DNA of 42,389 nt. It comes from Natrialba swarupiae. Its GTDB lineage: Archaea; Halobacteriota; Halobacteria; Halobacteriales; Natrialbaceae. The notes beneath the pieces are model-generated. The model searched no databases. It saw only the letters and a list, made by a program, of their open reading frames with translations, and was not told the DNA's origin. Positions 16,647 to 35,856 of the stretch are shown here, one piece after another; the stretch's first letter is position 1; each line of letters opens with the position of its first letter. The position numbers and the translations under genes are program-made. The stretch lies in NCBI RefSeq assembly GCF_008245225.1, contig NZ_VTAW01000031.1, positions 1 to 42,389 of the forward strand, written 5' to 3'.

Positions 16647-16668
16647 ATCGTTACAGCAATCCGTCTCA
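16647..16668 (-). repeat. Half copy of the stop-codon palindrome family
   Basis: On the minus strand it begins with the TGA stop of the zinc-ribbon gene and continues GACGGATTGCTGTAACGAT. Against the full copy at 28320-28402, 20 of the first 22 bases are the same. The 12-bp stem and 12-base loop of the full copies are not recognisable here. A weak candidate for the far end (ATAGTCAGCCGAAACG on the minus strand) lies near 16548-16565. It is probably a decayed or partial element. Confidence 0.65.
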
Positions 16669-17442
16669 GTCATCGCTCGCGGGTTCGGTCTCGAGCGATC
16701 GCGTCGCCGCGCGCTCGCAGGTGGCATCGAGACAGCGGACGCCGGTTCGGGTCTCGAACGTCGGTAGACCGCAGGCGCACTCGCCGTCGACGACGCCCGA
16801 CGGGAGCGCGAAGCCGGTGTCGCAGTCGGGGTAGTGTTCACACCCCGCGATGAGGCCGCCACGGCGCAGGATTCGGAGGTCACCGTCGCAATCGGGTTCG
16901 GGACAGCACCACTCGCGGTCGAACGCCTCCCCGACCGCGTCGTCGAGCGACTCGCAGTTCCGGTCGAGACAGACGTTGAACGCGAGGCCGCGTTCGACGC
17001 GCATTCGGGGGAGACCACAGTCGCAGTTGCTCTGGTCGGTCTTGATCGTCGCGTCGGCGGGTACGCCGTAGCGGGTCCCACAGTCGACACAGTGGACGTC
17101 GTTCGATCGGACGAGTGCGCCGTCACAGTCGGGACATGTGCCGACTGGCATGCCCGCGGGCGAGGAGGGGTAGTGGGCGAACCCGTCCTGGTCGTGGGTG
17201 GCGATTCGGAGGAGTTGCTCGTCTTTCTTTGCGACGAGTGCGAAGCCGTCGGCACGGTCGCTCGAGACGCTGTCGGCACGGGTGAGCCACGCGACGGGCT
17301 GGTAGCCGTCGACGTCGTGGACGAGGACGGTGTTGTCGGGCTTGACCATCGTCGTCACCCGCCCGCGGTACTCCTCGCGGTCGGCTCCTTCGGCGATGAC
17401 GGTACAGTCGCCCGCGAGCACGCGAATCGCGTCGTCGATCAT
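16666..17442 (-). CDS. NucS-like N-domain fused to four zinc ribbons
   Basis: A protein of 258 residues. Residues 1-60 (DDAIRVLAGDCTVIAEG ... DNTVLVHDVDGYQPVAWL) resemble the N-terminal DNA-binding domain of NucS/DUF91 nucleases; no nuclease catalytic domain follows. Instead there are four C4 zinc ribbons of topoisomerase type: Cys103/106/118/121, 140/142/158/163, 180/185/201/207 and 222/224/237/242. The third has the typical topoisomerase I pattern (GLIAGCEHYPDCD). The likely role is binding single-stranded DNA or RNA in repair or RNA processing; no enzymatic activity is evident. It has its own TATA box and lies upstream of endA on the same strand. The stop codon is inside a repeat-family motif. 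Confidence 0.85.
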   Translation of the reverse strand: MIDDAIRVLAGDCTVIAEGADREEYRGRVTTMVKPDNTVLVHDVDGYQPVAWLTRADSVSSDRADGFALVAKKDEQLLRIATHDQDGFAHYPSSPAGMPVGTCPDCDGALVRSNDVHCVDCGTRYGVPADATIKTDQSNCDCGLPRMRVERGLAFNVCLDRNCESLDDAVGEAFDREWCCPEPDCDGDLRILRRGGLIAGCEHYPDCDTGFALPSGVVDGECACGLPTFETRTGVRCLDATCERAATRSLETEPASDD

Positions 17443-28248: not shown

Positions 28249-28319
28249 AAACCGACCGTCCGCGGCGTCGTCTCCGCCCGCCTGCGCTCGAGCGGATTAC
28301 GTCGATGCGCCGCCTCTCG

Positions 28320-28399
28320 TACGGTTTACTGTAAGTCAGTTCCGGCGCAACCGCCGGACGGGTCGCGGTTGCGCCGGTAAATCGTTACAGTAATCCGTA
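28320..28399. repeat. 80-bp palindromic element, copy A
   Basis: A symmetrical element: terminal repeat TACGGTTTACTGTAA (28320-28334) and its near-perfect inverse TTACAGTAATCCGTA (28385-28399, one mismatch); a 7-base spacer on each side; and a perfect 12-bp stem CCGGCGCAACCG / CGGTTGCGCCGG (28342-28353, 28366-28377) around a 12-base loop containing ACGGGTC. The right end touches the TGA stop codon of the helicase gene (28400-28402). It lies between two convergent genes and could end both transcripts. Copy B at 35445 has the same dimensions but a different stem sequence. Confidence 0.85.
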
Positions 28400-30757
28400 T
28401 CAGCGGACCTCGACGTGTCGACTCGCCTCGATCGGCACGAGTGGCTCCTCGGGGAACGCGACGCTGACGGTAAACTCGAGTTCCTCGGCGTCCGCGCCGA
28501 AGACGCCGACGGGGACCGTTTCCTCCTCGCGGAGATACGTGCTGGTGCTCGTCATCTCGACCCCGTTGACGGTCACGCGAACGCCCGCCCTGGCGGGCTC
28601 GCCGACGTTCTCGACTGTCACCTCGCAGACGTCGTTCTCGCCGGTCTCGATCGTTTCGGGGAACGATCCCCAGTCGACCTCGACGGAGGGGAGCGACTGG
28701 GCACCCTCGTAGACGCGTTCGGCAACCCCCTCCGAGAGGCCGGCGTCGACGAGCCCCGCCACGCCAGCGGTCACGACGTCGCCTGGCGTCGAGAGCCCCT
28801 CGGTCGCCAGCTTGCTCGCCCGGCCCGGCCCGACGCCGTCGATCGCCGTCAGGCCGACCGCGTCCTCGGCGACGCCGTTCTCGATTCTGGCCTCGGTTCG
28901 CTGGGCGAGGTTGGCTGCGTGCGGTCCCACGAACCGGTCGAGAAACGCCTCCAGCGCGGAGACGAGTCGGGTCGCGTTGCGCCGGATTACCCAGGCGTCG
29001 CTCCGTAACTCCGCCGGCGTGTTCCCGCTGGCCGCGCCCCGCAGAATCGCGAGGACCTTACGCTGGCCCGGCGAGAGATCCCTGGTATCCGCGCCGACCA
29101 GAACCGCGTCGATCGCGTCGCGTTCGTCCTGGCGAGCCGACACCGAATCGAACTCCGTCGCCGTCGCGACCGCCTCGAGGATCTCTTCGGTTTCCAGCCC
29201 GCTCCTGTCGTCGACGACCCGATCACACAGCTCCGCGAACGTGACTGCCGTCTCGAGGCGCAGGTAGTACTTCGAGGCGAGGACGCCCCGTGGCGTCGCC
29301 TCGATCGAGAGGTCCTCGCTAGTCTCGACGAAACCACGGTCGACCAGTTCCTCGAGGCAGTCGCGAACCCGGCCACGGAGGTCGGGAAAGTCGTACTCCT
29401 CGGGTTTGGACTGGCCGCGGACGTAATAAAAGGTCGTCTCGAGCCACGACATGACGTCCTCGACGTCGCCGATCGTCCCCATCGCGATCTCGGCGTTGAG
29501 GTGGGTCTCTAAGCTCTCCGCCAGGCGGGATTCGATCTCTTTCCCCTCGTTCAGCAGCCGACGGTACTTGTCGGCCTCCGCCGTATCGCAGACGACCCAG
29601 CCGTAGCCGACGTCGTCGTAGCCGGGACGACCGGCCCGGCCGAGCATCTGGAGGACGTCGAGCGGACTCATGTCCACCTCGCCTTCGAGCGGGTCGTGGA
29701 GCTTCGTATCGCGGATGACGACACAGCGGGCGGGGAGGTTCACCCCCCAGGCCAGCGTCGACGTCGAAAAGAGGAGCTCGACCCGACCTTCCTTGAACCA
29801 CTTCTCGACGAGGTCACGGTCGTTCTTCGAGAGCCCGGCGTGGTGAAACGCCACGCCGTCGAGCACCGAGTTACGGAGCGTGTCGTTCTCGAGTTCCTTC
29901 GAGTCGGTGTGAAAGTCGTAGTCCCCGCGTGCGCCCATCGGGACGTCGCGTTCGGCGATCTCGTCTCTGGCCTTTTTCGCCGCCTGCACCGTATCCTGTC
30001 TCGAGGCGACGAAGACGAGCGCCTGGCCGTCCTCCCGAAGGTGTGGTTCGGCGAGGTCGAGCGCCCGATACAGCCGGCGGTACTTGTCGGCGAACGTGTT
30101 CTCGCCGTGCGTGTACGTTTTGACGCCGGCGTTCAAGTCGACGGGACGGTACTCGTCGCCGAACTCGAAGGTAGTCTCGGGGGGTGCATCGAGCCAGGCG
30201 GCTACATCGTCGACGTTGGGCATCGTCGCCGAGAGTGCAACGATTCGCGGATCACAGAGCCGCCGAAGTCGCGATATCGTCACCTCGAGGACCGATCCGC
30301 GTCGGTCGGCGTCGAGAAGATGAACCTCGTCGATGACGCAGACGTCGACGTCGGTGACGAAGTCGTAGCGCCGTGAGTCGTGTTTGCGGGTGGCCGAGTC
30401 GAGTTTCTCGGGGGTCATCACGAGGATGTCCGCTCGCCGGGCGCGGCGGGGATTGAGATCGCGCTCGCCCGTGACGACGTACACCGAGTACTCGAGGTCC
30501 TCGAAGCGGTCCCAGTCGTCTTCTTTCTCGTTCGTCAGCGCCCGCATGGGGGCGATAAACAGCGCGGTCCCGCCGTCGGCGAGTGCCTTACAGATCGCCA
30601 GTTCGGCGAGGGCGGTCTTTCCCGAGGCCGTCGGTGCGCTCGCGACGACGTTGTCCTCACGCTCGATGAGCGCGGGGAGGGCCTCGCGTTGCATCCGGTT
30701 GAACTCCTCAAAGGCGAAGGCGTCGGCAAACTCGGGAAGAACCTCGGCAACCTCCAT
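28400..30757 (-). CDS. Hel308-type superfamily 2 DNA helicase
   Basis: An ATP-dependent helicase of 785 residues from ATG 30757 (a GTG just upstream is in frame). Motifs: Q-motif region FNRMQREALPAL, Walker A APTASGKT (41-48), motif Ib MTPEKLD, DEVH at 143-146 in place of DEAH/DExH, SATMPN (176-181), and motif VI QMLGRAGRPGYD (370-381). The winged-helix and ratchet domains occupy about 400-620. A helix-hairpin-helix pair lies at 636-690 (LTAIDGVGPGRASKLATEG). Residues 700-785 form an extra beta-rich, Ig-like tail (NDVCEVTVENVGEPARAGVRV). Hel308 proteins act on stalled replication forks. The tail and moderate divergence suggest a second Hel308 paralogue rather than the main one. Confidence 0.9.
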   Translation of the reverse strand: MEVAEVLPEFADAFAFEEFNRMQREALPALIEREDNVVASAPTASGKTALAELAICKALADGGTALFIAPMRALTNEKEDDWDRFEDLEYSVYVVTGERDLNPRRARRADILVMTPEKLDSATRKHDSRRYDFVTDVDVCVIDEVHLLDADRRGSVLEVTISRLRRLCDPRIVALSATMPNVDDVAAWLDAPPETTFEFGDEYRPVDLNAGVKTYTHGENTFADKYRRLYRALDLAEPHLREDGQALVFVASRQDTVQAAKKARDEIAERDVPMGARGDYDFHTDSKELENDTLRNSVLDGVAFHHAGLSKNDRDLVEKWFKEGRVELLFSTSTLAWGVNLPARCVVIRDTKLHDPLEGEVDMSPLDVLQMLGRAGRPGYDDVGYGWVVCDTAEADKYRRLLNEGKEIESRLAESLETHLNAEIAMGTIGDVEDVMSWLETTFYYVRGQSKPEEYDFPDLRGRVRDCLEELVDRGFVETSEDLSIEATPRGVLASKYYLRLETAVTFAELCDRVVDDRSGLETEEILEAVATATEFDSVSARQDERDAIDAVLVGADTRDLSPGQRKVLAILRGAASGNTPAELRSDAWVIRRNATRLVSALEAFLDRFVGPHAANLAQRTEARIENGVAEDAVGLTAIDGVGPGRASKLATEGLSTPGDVVTAGVAGLVDAGLSEGVAERVYEGAQSLPSVEVDWGSFPETIETGENDVCEVTVENVGEPARAGVRVTVNGVEMTSTSTYLREEETVPVGVFGADAEELEFTVSVAFPEEPLVPIEASRHVEVR

Positions 30758-30790: not shown

Positions 30791-30942
30791 TTTCCTTCCG
30801 GGGCGACACCGCTCTCGGCGGGTGAAAGAACGGACGACTGTGTCGTCGTCGATCGATCAAACTTCTCGGCTGATGGCCGTCGGTGTCGGACGGTCCACGA
30901 ACGGTTCGTGGTCGGCCCGACAACTCGGGACGGCGATCCGTT

Positions 30943-31224
30943 CTAGACCGTAATCTCGCCGTCGTTGATCTTTCCTGCCTGGAGATACGCGTCAGCCGCT
31001 GCGCCGATGTGGAACAGCGGCGAGAGGAACATCAGCAGGAACCCGATGAAAAGCAACATCGTGACGAAGACAACGATCCAGAAGACGACGTACGCCCCCA
31101 GGATGATGCCGCCGCGTTTCGTCTGGCCGTTGTAAATCTGCCCAACACCCGGAATGAAAAACGAGATAATTGCCGACAGTATCTCGTTTACTTCGTCGTT
31201 GCCCGTTGTAGCTGCATTTGCCAT
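30943..31224 (-). CDS. Small TM2-like membrane protein
   Basis: A protein of 93 residues with two membrane spans: about 15-45 (ILSAIISFFIPGVGQIYNGQ, then GGIILGAYVVFWIVV), and VFVTMLLFIGFLLMFLSPL. The PGVGQIYNGQTKRGGIIL block, with a Gly-rich turn and a Tyr-Asn-Gly between two spans, is like the TM2 domain and related short 'PG.GQ.Y.G....G' membrane families. It ends with a short amphipathic tail. The function is unknown. A TATA box lies about 39 bases upstream, giving a leader of about 12 bases. Confidence 0.8.
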   Translation of the reverse strand: MANAATTGNDEVNEILSAIISFFIPGVGQIYNGQTKRGGIILGAYVVFWIVVFVTMLLFIGFLLMFLSPLFHIGAAADAYLQAGKINDGEITV

Positions 31225-34451: not shown

Positions 34452-35444
34452 ATGAGCAGCGTACGCAAGCCCGACTGGCTCAAGAGCCGCCCGCCGTCGG
34501 GACGGGAGTTCGCAGACATTCGGGAGACGCTGCGCGAACGGAATCTCCACACCGTCTGTGAGGAAGCCAACTGTCCGAACCTCGGCGAGTGCTGGTCGGG
34601 ACGGTCGTCCTCGAGACGCGGTTCGGCTGGCGAACACGCCGGTGGAGACGGCGACCCACCCGCGGGAGAGGGGGGTGGCACCGCGACGTTCATGCTCATG
34701 GGCGATCGCTGCTCTCGAGGCTGTAACTTCTGTGACGTCGAGACGGGCGGGATGGAGCCACTCGACCCGGACGAACCCGAAAACGTCGCGGAGGCGGTCG
34801 CCGAGATCGGCCTCGACTACGTCGTCCTCACGAGCGTCGACCGCGACGACCTCCCCGACCAGGGGGCGGGCCACTTCGCCGAGACGATCCGCGAGATCAA
34901 AGCGCGCCATCCGGGCATTCTCGTCGAGGTGCTCATCCCCGATTTCCAGGGCGAGGAGCGTCTGGTACGAAAGATAATCGACGCCGATCCGGACGTAATC
35001 GCACACAACGTCGAGACCGTTTCCCGCCTCCAGTACCCCGTGCGGGACCGCCGGGCCGGCTACGAGCAATCGCTGTCGGTCTTAGCGCAAGTCGAGCGTG
35101 AATCCGACACCTACACCAAGACCTCGATCATGCTCGGTCACGGCGAGTACGACCACGAGGTCTACCAGACCCTAGCGGACTGTCGCGAGCGCGGCGTCGA
35201 CATCGTCACGCTCGGTCAGTACCTGCGTCCCTCGAGAAGTCACCTCGAGGTTCAGCGGTACGACCACCCGGACAAGTACGAGACGTGGCGTCAGGTCGCC
35301 GAAGAGGAGTTAGGCTTCCTCTACTGTGCCAGCGGGCCGATGGTTCGCTCCTCGTACAAGGCCGGCGAGCTGTTCGTCGACGCCGTCCTGCGAGAGGGCA
35401 AAAGCGTCGAGAAAGCGCGCGACGAGGCGCGCAGGACAGTCTGA
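34452..35444 (+). CDS. lipA: Lipoyl synthase
   Basis: A radical-SAM enzyme that inserts two sulfurs into octanoyl groups on the E2 lipoyl domain, 330 residues. The auxiliary cluster cysteines are Cys36, 41 and 47 (CEEANCPNLGEC), the radical-SAM cysteines are Cys87, 91 and 94 (CSRGCNFC), and the C-terminal RSSY (299-302) supplies the serine ligand. The unusual part is residues 50-76, a low-complexity Ser/Gly/Glu/His insertion between the two cluster regions, where relatives have only a few residues. The gene lies directly upstream of the 2-oxoacid dehydrogenase genes whose E2 needs the cofactor. No lipoyl transferase (LipB/LplA) is in the window. Its stop codon touches palindromic element B. 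Confidence 0.95.
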   Translation: MSSVRKPDWLKSRPPSGREFADIRETLRERNLHTVCEEANCPNLGECWSGRSSSRRGSAGEHAGGDGDPPAGEGGGTATFMLMGDRCSRGCNFCDVETGGMEPLDPDEPENVAEAVAEIGLDYVVLTSVDRDDLPDQGAGHFAETIREIKARHPGILVEVLIPDFQGEERLVRKIIDADPDVIAHNVETVSRLQYPVRDRRAGYEQSLSVLAQVERESDTYTKTSIMLGHGEYDHEVYQTLADCRERGVDIVTLGQYLRPSRSHLEVQRYDHPDKYETWRQVAEEELGFLYCASGPMVRSSYKAGELFVDAVLREGKSVEKARDEARRTV

Positions 35445-35524
35445 TACGAATTGCTGTCCCTGTGTCCCGCCGCTCCCGGAAAACGGGTCACGGGAGCGGC
35501 GGTACCGACCTCCAGTAAACCGTA
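35445..35524. repeat. 80-bp palindromic element, copy B
   Basis: It has exactly the same layout as copy A (28320): end repeats TACGAATTGCTGTCC (35445-35459) and CTCCAGTAAACCGTA (35510-35524), 7-base spacers, and a perfect 12-bp stem CCGCCGCTCCCG / CGGGAGCGGCGG (35467-35478, 35491-35502) around a 12-base loop with ACGGGTC. The left end touches the TGA of lipA (35442-35444). The terminal CAGTAAACCGTA is identical to one end of copy A, while the stem is unrelated in sequence. It lies between lipA and the E1 gene and may end lipA transcription. Confidence 0.85.
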
Positions 35525-35856
35525 TGACCCTGTCAGTTCGACCCTCGGAACGGTCAGTGCTCGGCGATCGGTTTTGACTTTCACGTACCGCCACCCGAGT
35601 GCCTGCCTCGTCCTCGAGCGTCTCTCCACTCGAGGTGTTGTGCTGCGGTAGTGGCGGTACCTGTCGTCGAATGTACGTGTTGAAACCGCTCGTGGATAAT
35701 TCCCGAATCTAACCCGCTGTCGACTCTATATTTGTCTACCTGTCTCTCGAATCACTGTCGTCGTGTGGCAATAATCTCACAGATAGTAAACTATATCGGG
35801 GAAAATCCTTTATCCTGAGCGATATATTATTCGGATATGTGCAGGTGGGTTCACCC
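35525..35856 (+). other. Intergenic region before the 2-oxoacid dehydrogenase operon
   Basis: After element B these 330 bases have no convincing gene. The right third is AT-rich and contains two possible promoter/start pairs for E1alpha: CTTTATCC at 35808-35815 (28 bases before GTG 35839) and CGATATATTATTCGG at 35820-35834 (about 30 bases before GTG 35857). A further AT-rich string, AGTAAACTATATCGGGG, is at 35785-35801. Confidence 0.5.
35820..35834 (+). promoter_or_regulatory. Probable TATA box of the E1-E2-E3 operon
   Basis: CGATATATTATTCGG is the most AT-rich box in the region, about 30 bases before GTG 35857, the start that matches related E1alpha proteins. Confidence 0.45.

Follow-up and report, generated by a model that had tools for sequence, protein, structure and literature searches.

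An 80-bp, probably MITE-like palindromic element of Natrialbaceae with a TSA target that often coincides with TGA stop codons

Two palindromes in the window, the whole 42,389-nucleotide stretch of Natrialba swarupiae DNA analysed here (contig NZ_VTAW01000031.1), belong to an abundant family of mobile, non-coding repeats. Constant in length at 79-80 bp, the element is very probably a MITE-like, non-autonomous DNA transposon with a TSA target, moved in trans by a predicted enzyme. The evidence comes from the flanking duplications, empty sites, nested insertions, target preference and the behaviour of the inner stem and loop among the copies.

Copies in the window and distribution of the family

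Direct reading of copy A (28320-28399) and copy B (35445-35524) agreed with the original prediction on both layout and stems. Each copy is composed of segments of 15, 7, 12, 12, 12, 7 and 15 nucleotides in the same order, and the 12-bp inner stem is perfectly complementary in both while its sequence differs between them. The outer ends pair at 14 of 15 positions in copy A and at only about 9 of 15 in copy B, which belongs to a different subfamily and lies in the opposite orientation. Both copies fold far better than shuffled sequences, as single-stranded DNA and as RNA; the single-stranded DNA folds reached -28.9 kcal/mol (z -7.6) for copy A and -19.9 kcal/mol (z -3.5) for copy B. Both also abut a TGA stop codon exactly, on the minus and plus strands, respectively (Table 1); neither this position nor the 3-bp direct repeat outside the element had been part of the original prediction. 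The decayed flank pair of copy A, TCG/TCA, is common, being found at 9 of the 137 copies of this genome, and an internal TCA such as that in its left spacer is an insertion target in other genomes.

Table 1. Elements, target site duplications (TSD) and adjoining genes in the window
Feature	Position	Strand	Remarks
Outer left 3-mer TCG	28317-28319	+	decayed TSD copy, partner TCA at 28400; flanks read
Copy A, left end TACGGTTTACTGTAA	28320-28334	+	terminal inverted repeat
Copy A, spacer GTCAGTT	28335-28341	+	7 nt, with internal TCA
Copy A, left arm CCGGCGCAACCG	28342-28353	+	
Copy A, loop CCGGACGGGTCG	28354-28365	+	12 nt, inverted (minority orientation)
Copy A, right arm CGGTTGCGCCGG	28366-28377	+	
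Copy A, spacer TAAATCG	28378-28384	+	7 nt
Copy A, right end TTACAGTAATCCGTA	28385-28399	+	
TSD TCA (plus strand)	28400-28402	-	TGA stop of the helicase gene
DEAD-box/Sec63 (Hel308-like) helicase gene	28400-30757	-	stop adjoins copy A
TSD TGA	35442-35444	+	stop of the lipoyl synthase gene
Lipoyl synthase (lipA-like) gene	34452-35444	+	stop adjoins copy B
Copy B, arms CCGCCGCTCCCG / CGGGAGCGGCGG	35445-35524	-	80 bp
Second TSD copy of copy B, TGA	35525-35527	+	
Probable third copy, strongly decayed	30868-30942	+	30.7 bits, E 1.8e-5; adjoins TAG stop of called gene 30943-31224 (-)
End remnant ACAGCAATCCGTC of a fourth copy	16653-16665	+	adjoins TGA stop (GACTGA) of gene 16666-17442 (-)

The pattern TTDCTGT-N40-55-ACAGYAA matched about 50 palindromic places in the N. 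swarupiae genome versus one for the reversed pattern, and chance origin of the palindrome family is excluded. The covariance model that the original prediction had called for was made from 43 aligned copies and returned at least 148 rows at E <= 1e-3 in this genome. Removal of double-strand hits and weak rows left 137 distinct copies, a lower bound, whose flanks were read. The original prediction had held that a genome with only the copies of the window would point to chance or ordinary terminators; instead, this 4.2-Mb genome carries the element at no fewer than 137 distinct places, as a short, non-coding repeat of 79-80 bp, with identical copies present at different loci. Among 42 copies, the end pairs at columns 7-8 and 10-13 were nearly invariant (column 13 in 41 of 42), and the TACGG/CCGTA end pairs were retained in 33-40.

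The search of other haloarchaeal genomes, likewise proposed beforehand, found matches in 90 of 121 sampled Natrialbaceae genomes and in 60 of 195 genomes of an order-level sample, several other families of the order included. All named matches to the strict pattern were Natrialbaceae, among them Natronococcus, Natrarchaeobius, Salinadaptatus, Natrialba and Natronorubrum. Plasmids held few copies at the sensitivity used (18 places in 13 records). No match was found in the phage records searched or, with the strict pattern, in the viral contigs searched, and viral carriage of the element was rejected on these results. Rfam covariance models gave no match at the elements, the weak nearby hits being far below the gathering score. 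No description of the element was found in the openly readable literature that was searched, in line with the original prediction, which knew of no published name for it; as far as could be checked, the element is apparently undescribed.

Mobility and target choice

The element is mobile and is unlikely to be an RNA terminator. The view that it is a REP- or MITE-like mobile palindrome, put forward in the original prediction, was strongly supported by target duplications, empty sites, presence or absence at orthologous places, nested and tandem insertions and a large number of copies. The flanking direct repeat is 3 bp long, TGA/TGA or TCA/TCA. Identical flanking 3-mers were read at 89 of the 137 N. 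swarupiae copies, 85 of these being TGA or TCA, and both relative orientations occur (57 TCA/TCA and 28 TGA/TGA); in other Natrialbaceae, 78 of 94 copies had identical flanking 3-mers. Decayed flank pairs often read TGA/CGA or TCG/TCA. The downstream duplicate was CGA in 17 of the 48 non-identical pairs among the 137 copies, and selection on stop codons is not by itself enough to account for this T-to-C bias in the duplicate distal to the gene.

Empty sites were obtained for L128, a locus at which the element lies within a multicopy gene: paralogues from the same genome and from another one could be aligned over the joined flanks with no gap and carry a single TCA. These paralogues, of about 70-80% identity and not from a near-identical strain, were used because, within the genus, the sequence downstream of orthologous junctions had diverged too far to reveal an empty site cleanly. 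The small multicopy gene (L128 and its paralogues L401, L403, L407, L409 and L411) encodes a zinc-ribbon-like protein (CDCG...CPDC) and occupies about ten places across two genomes; the element disrupts one of its copies.

For the lipA stop, 61 family genomes yielded 30 loci, and among the 27 with a readable gene end a copy was present only in N. swarupiae and in one other genome (G012), the two copies belonging to different subfamilies. The same stop has been hit independently by different subfamilies at lipA (L340, L364) and at the Hel308-like gene (L103, L150), and further independently hit stops are those of the C26:858 gene (L385) and the C39:20175 gene (L392). Nested insertions were also found: the copies in L258, L203, L263, L209, L253 and L224, and probably that in L225, are inserted at one TGA within a cousin element, and a 99-bp sister element is nested in the internal TCA of the 80-bp copies L295 and L306. 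Tandem copies with a common TSD occur at L086.

The cousin is a palindromic element of about 78 bp (TACGGTYTGCGATGACTGATT...CCGTA) with TSA flanks, also present at L030:4074-4150 and L204:2656-2733, and the 80-bp element has inserted repeatedly at its internal GACTGA. The sister family has a fixed length of about 99 bp, the ends TAGGGATTATCGT and, where seen, TCA/TGA flanks (L310-L339, for example G063:C1:11128-11226). Stacked left ends in tandem ahead of a full element were observed at L133, L178, L289 and L300, and probably arose by nested insertion and a later deletion between similar ends. At L290 (G012:C11), a 21-bp remnant, TACGGTTTACTGTAATCCGTA, lies between two TGA copies, an internal deletion having joined both ends.

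A TGA stop was abutted exactly by 56 of the 137 N. swarupiae copies (about 41%) compared with 8.9% expected (p = 9e-24), the expectation being the fraction of candidate TSA sites located at called stops in this genome (302 of 3405). In other genomes, 51 of 94 copies (54%) were on a TGA stop compared with 7.7% expected (p = 8e-32). Genes were called by a codon-usage script trained on long frames, with some stops missed or misplaced. None of the 137 and 94 copies was called wholly inside a gene, L128 being located in a small or broken gene omitted by the gene caller. Orientation at stops is biased, with the right end directed to the gene in 39 of the 56 copies.

Insertions at stops and elsewhere have the same GACTGAGA context, and therefore DNA sequence preference largely explains the stop bias. 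A weight matrix derived from non-stop insertions, a reference set that may include missed stop codons, predicted that 26-48% of insertions would fall at stops, the value varying with the positions included; the preference is thus enough, or nearly so, and exact recognition of stop codons was rejected, the sequence motif being sufficient. Purging of harmful insertions by selection may supply the remainder. The duplicated TGA regenerates the stop and leaves the gene intact, so that an insertion at a stop would be harmless and be retained.

Pairing of the arms and inversion of the loop

Two-sided base changes in nine pairs of the stem filled 93 cells, compared with 42 in shuffles, which leave relatedness among the copies in place, and 3-19 for slid partners. 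The two arms within one copy match at 10.25 of 12 positions, compared with 8.48 between left arms of different copies. Perfect stems were commonest with intact ends (16 of 38 copies), and stem mismatches increased both as the ends decayed (rho 0.41, p = 3e-6) and where the TSD was lost (from 1.43 to 2.40). G-U and A-C oppositions were seen 65 and 54 times (p = 0.36), that is, with no G-U preference. The pairing is thus a feature of the lineage of moving copies, and individual sites do not maintain it. The earlier proposal that the folded form is selected or copied holds for the mobile copies, where the loop inversions described below extend it.

Since pairing fades with age and G-U is not preferred, an RNA function at each site is argued against. 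The second possibility raised in the original prediction, a structured RNA 3' end, would make the element a 3'-UTR hairpin or terminator selected beside stops to end transcription or protect mRNA. Its exact position after stops in 41-54% of copies, its very stable RNA fold and the two-sided changes fit such a role, but the last were scored against shuffles that do not take out relatedness, and pairing is lost as copies age, with no excess of G-U over A-C. This explanation is unlikely also in view of the 3-bp duplication and empty sites, the many orthologous genes (most of them) that lack the element, the location of more than half of the N. swarupiae copies away from a called stop, and the lack of an Rfam match.

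The loop was forward in 85, reverse in 19 and unclear in 19 of 123 copies; it is inverted, with unchanged arms, in about one-fifth of the scorable copies. Pairs with inverted loops that differ by 0-1 bases outside the loop were present in several subfamilies. Arms of 12 bases seem too short for ordinary homologous recombination, which suggests that the loop flips via a hairpin, cruciform or template-switch step.

Candidate movers, proposed mechanism and known relatives

A transposase with matching ends, which the original prediction had suggested looking for, did not turn up in the material examined. No transposase-bearing element was found among orphan ends in eight whole genomes, and no autonomous partner was found among like-ended pairs with equal TSD 150-5000 bp apart in about 1.9 Mb of loci or in a search with the ends of the 99-bp sister family. 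End pairs at 1-3 kb proved to be two separate 80-bp elements around ordinary genes, and PF01609 (DDE_Tnp_1) transposase loci in three genomes had other ends. Clustering of 430 neighbour proteins, with the larger clusters judged by eye, gave no recurrent mobility gene; the neighbours are ordinary (sensor kinase, UspA, ABC ATPase, Mrp and others), and, on these clusters, a mover encoded beside the elements appears unlikely. Only the 3-bp duplication bears on the class of the enzyme, and it points to the DDE type.

A REP/RAYT-like mode of spread, through a single-strand (HUH, Y1) enzyme whose gene lies elsewhere, appears improbable. A high-copy, extragenic, hairpin-forming repeat for which no autonomous copy with the same ends was found, and whose loop inversion suggests a folded intermediate, is consistent with such an enzyme, but Y1 enzymes leave no target duplication, both orientations relative to TGA (57 : 28) would be unexpected for them, and the clustering of neighbour proteins revealed no recurrent mobility gene. 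It is most improbable that a host-encoded or domesticated, unlinked transposase upholds the element for the use of copies after stops in insulation, mRNA ends or chromosome organisation: family-wide occurrence, fixed length, stop-codon bias, the preferred orientation with the right end on the gene side (39 : 17) and the scarcity of plasmid copies agree with it, but sequence preference alone nearly gives the observed stop share, many family genomes lack any copy, and copies decay.

For the favoured MITE-like transposon, we infer action in trans and a role of the hairpin. The supplied enzyme would recognise the TACGG-N-YTRCTGT ends and cut the two target strands 3 bases apart at TSA (TGA or TCA), preferably within GACTGAGA; the element would be joined in, and repair would then duplicate the three target bases. 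Many stops would match this target, since an acidic codon followed by TGA is a frequent ending of haloarchaeal genes. The inner 12-bp palindrome would stay complementary only in the lineage of moving copies, complementarity being either required for transposition or produced in a folded intermediate, where one arm serves as template for the other; loops that flip between identical arms and ends would fit such an intermediate. A wider proposal is tentative and rather doubtful: the 80-bp element, its cousin and its sister might form a superfamily of palindromes of constant length whose spread depends on an unlinked transposase, maintained over long times without a mobile copy of its own. Movement would pass through a folded DNA intermediate in which one arm is rewritten to match the other and the loop is inverted, with stops as safe harbours since the 3-bp duplication restores them.

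The nearest known kinds are the MITEs and SMRs of Haloquadratum, and the element works like a MITE. Like the haloarchaeal MITEs (PMC3119063), it is short, non-coding and multicopy and has terminal inverted repeats and a target duplication of constant length; mobilisation in trans, probable here, would be a further common trait. It differs from them in that the searches turned up no parent transposon of matching ends, and in its fixed length, complementary arms that vary between copies, loops in either orientation and a TSA target on stops. SMR-A and SMR-B of Haloquadratum walsbyi are of similar size (80-110 bp), with inverted ends unlike those of known transposons, a target preference and, as here, no mover identified, but SMRs are reported to insert into other mobile elements without target duplication (PMC3119063), whereas the 80-bp element makes a 3-bp duplication and is found mainly at gene ends and in spacers. 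REPs, which are associated with RAYTs, are likewise non-coding extragenic palindromes with more than 100 copies, some right after stops; they measure 20-40 bp, have a GTAG or CGTC tag at one end and cause no target duplication (PMC2817692, PMC3733652), whereas the present element is longer, with TACGG...CCGTA inverted ends and a duplication, and has neither the size nor the tag of a REP. The palindrome-associated transposable elements (PATEs) are also haloarchaeal and non-coding with inner palindromes, but they lack inverted ends, are related to IS605-type ends and make no target duplication (PMC3119063); the inverted ends of the 80-bp element set it apart from PATEs.

In conclusion, a large archaeal family carries an abundant repeat that is unnamed in the literature searched, and remaking of the stop by the duplicated TGA offers a straightforward explanation for the tolerance of insertions next to genes. 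Whether short palindromes move through a folded intermediate can be tested, by sequence alone and at the bench, on the loops of opposite orientation and the complementary arms particular to each lineage, and the predicted mover is a concrete search target. Haloarchaeal annotation and RNA work should expect such hairpins directly 3' of stop codons.
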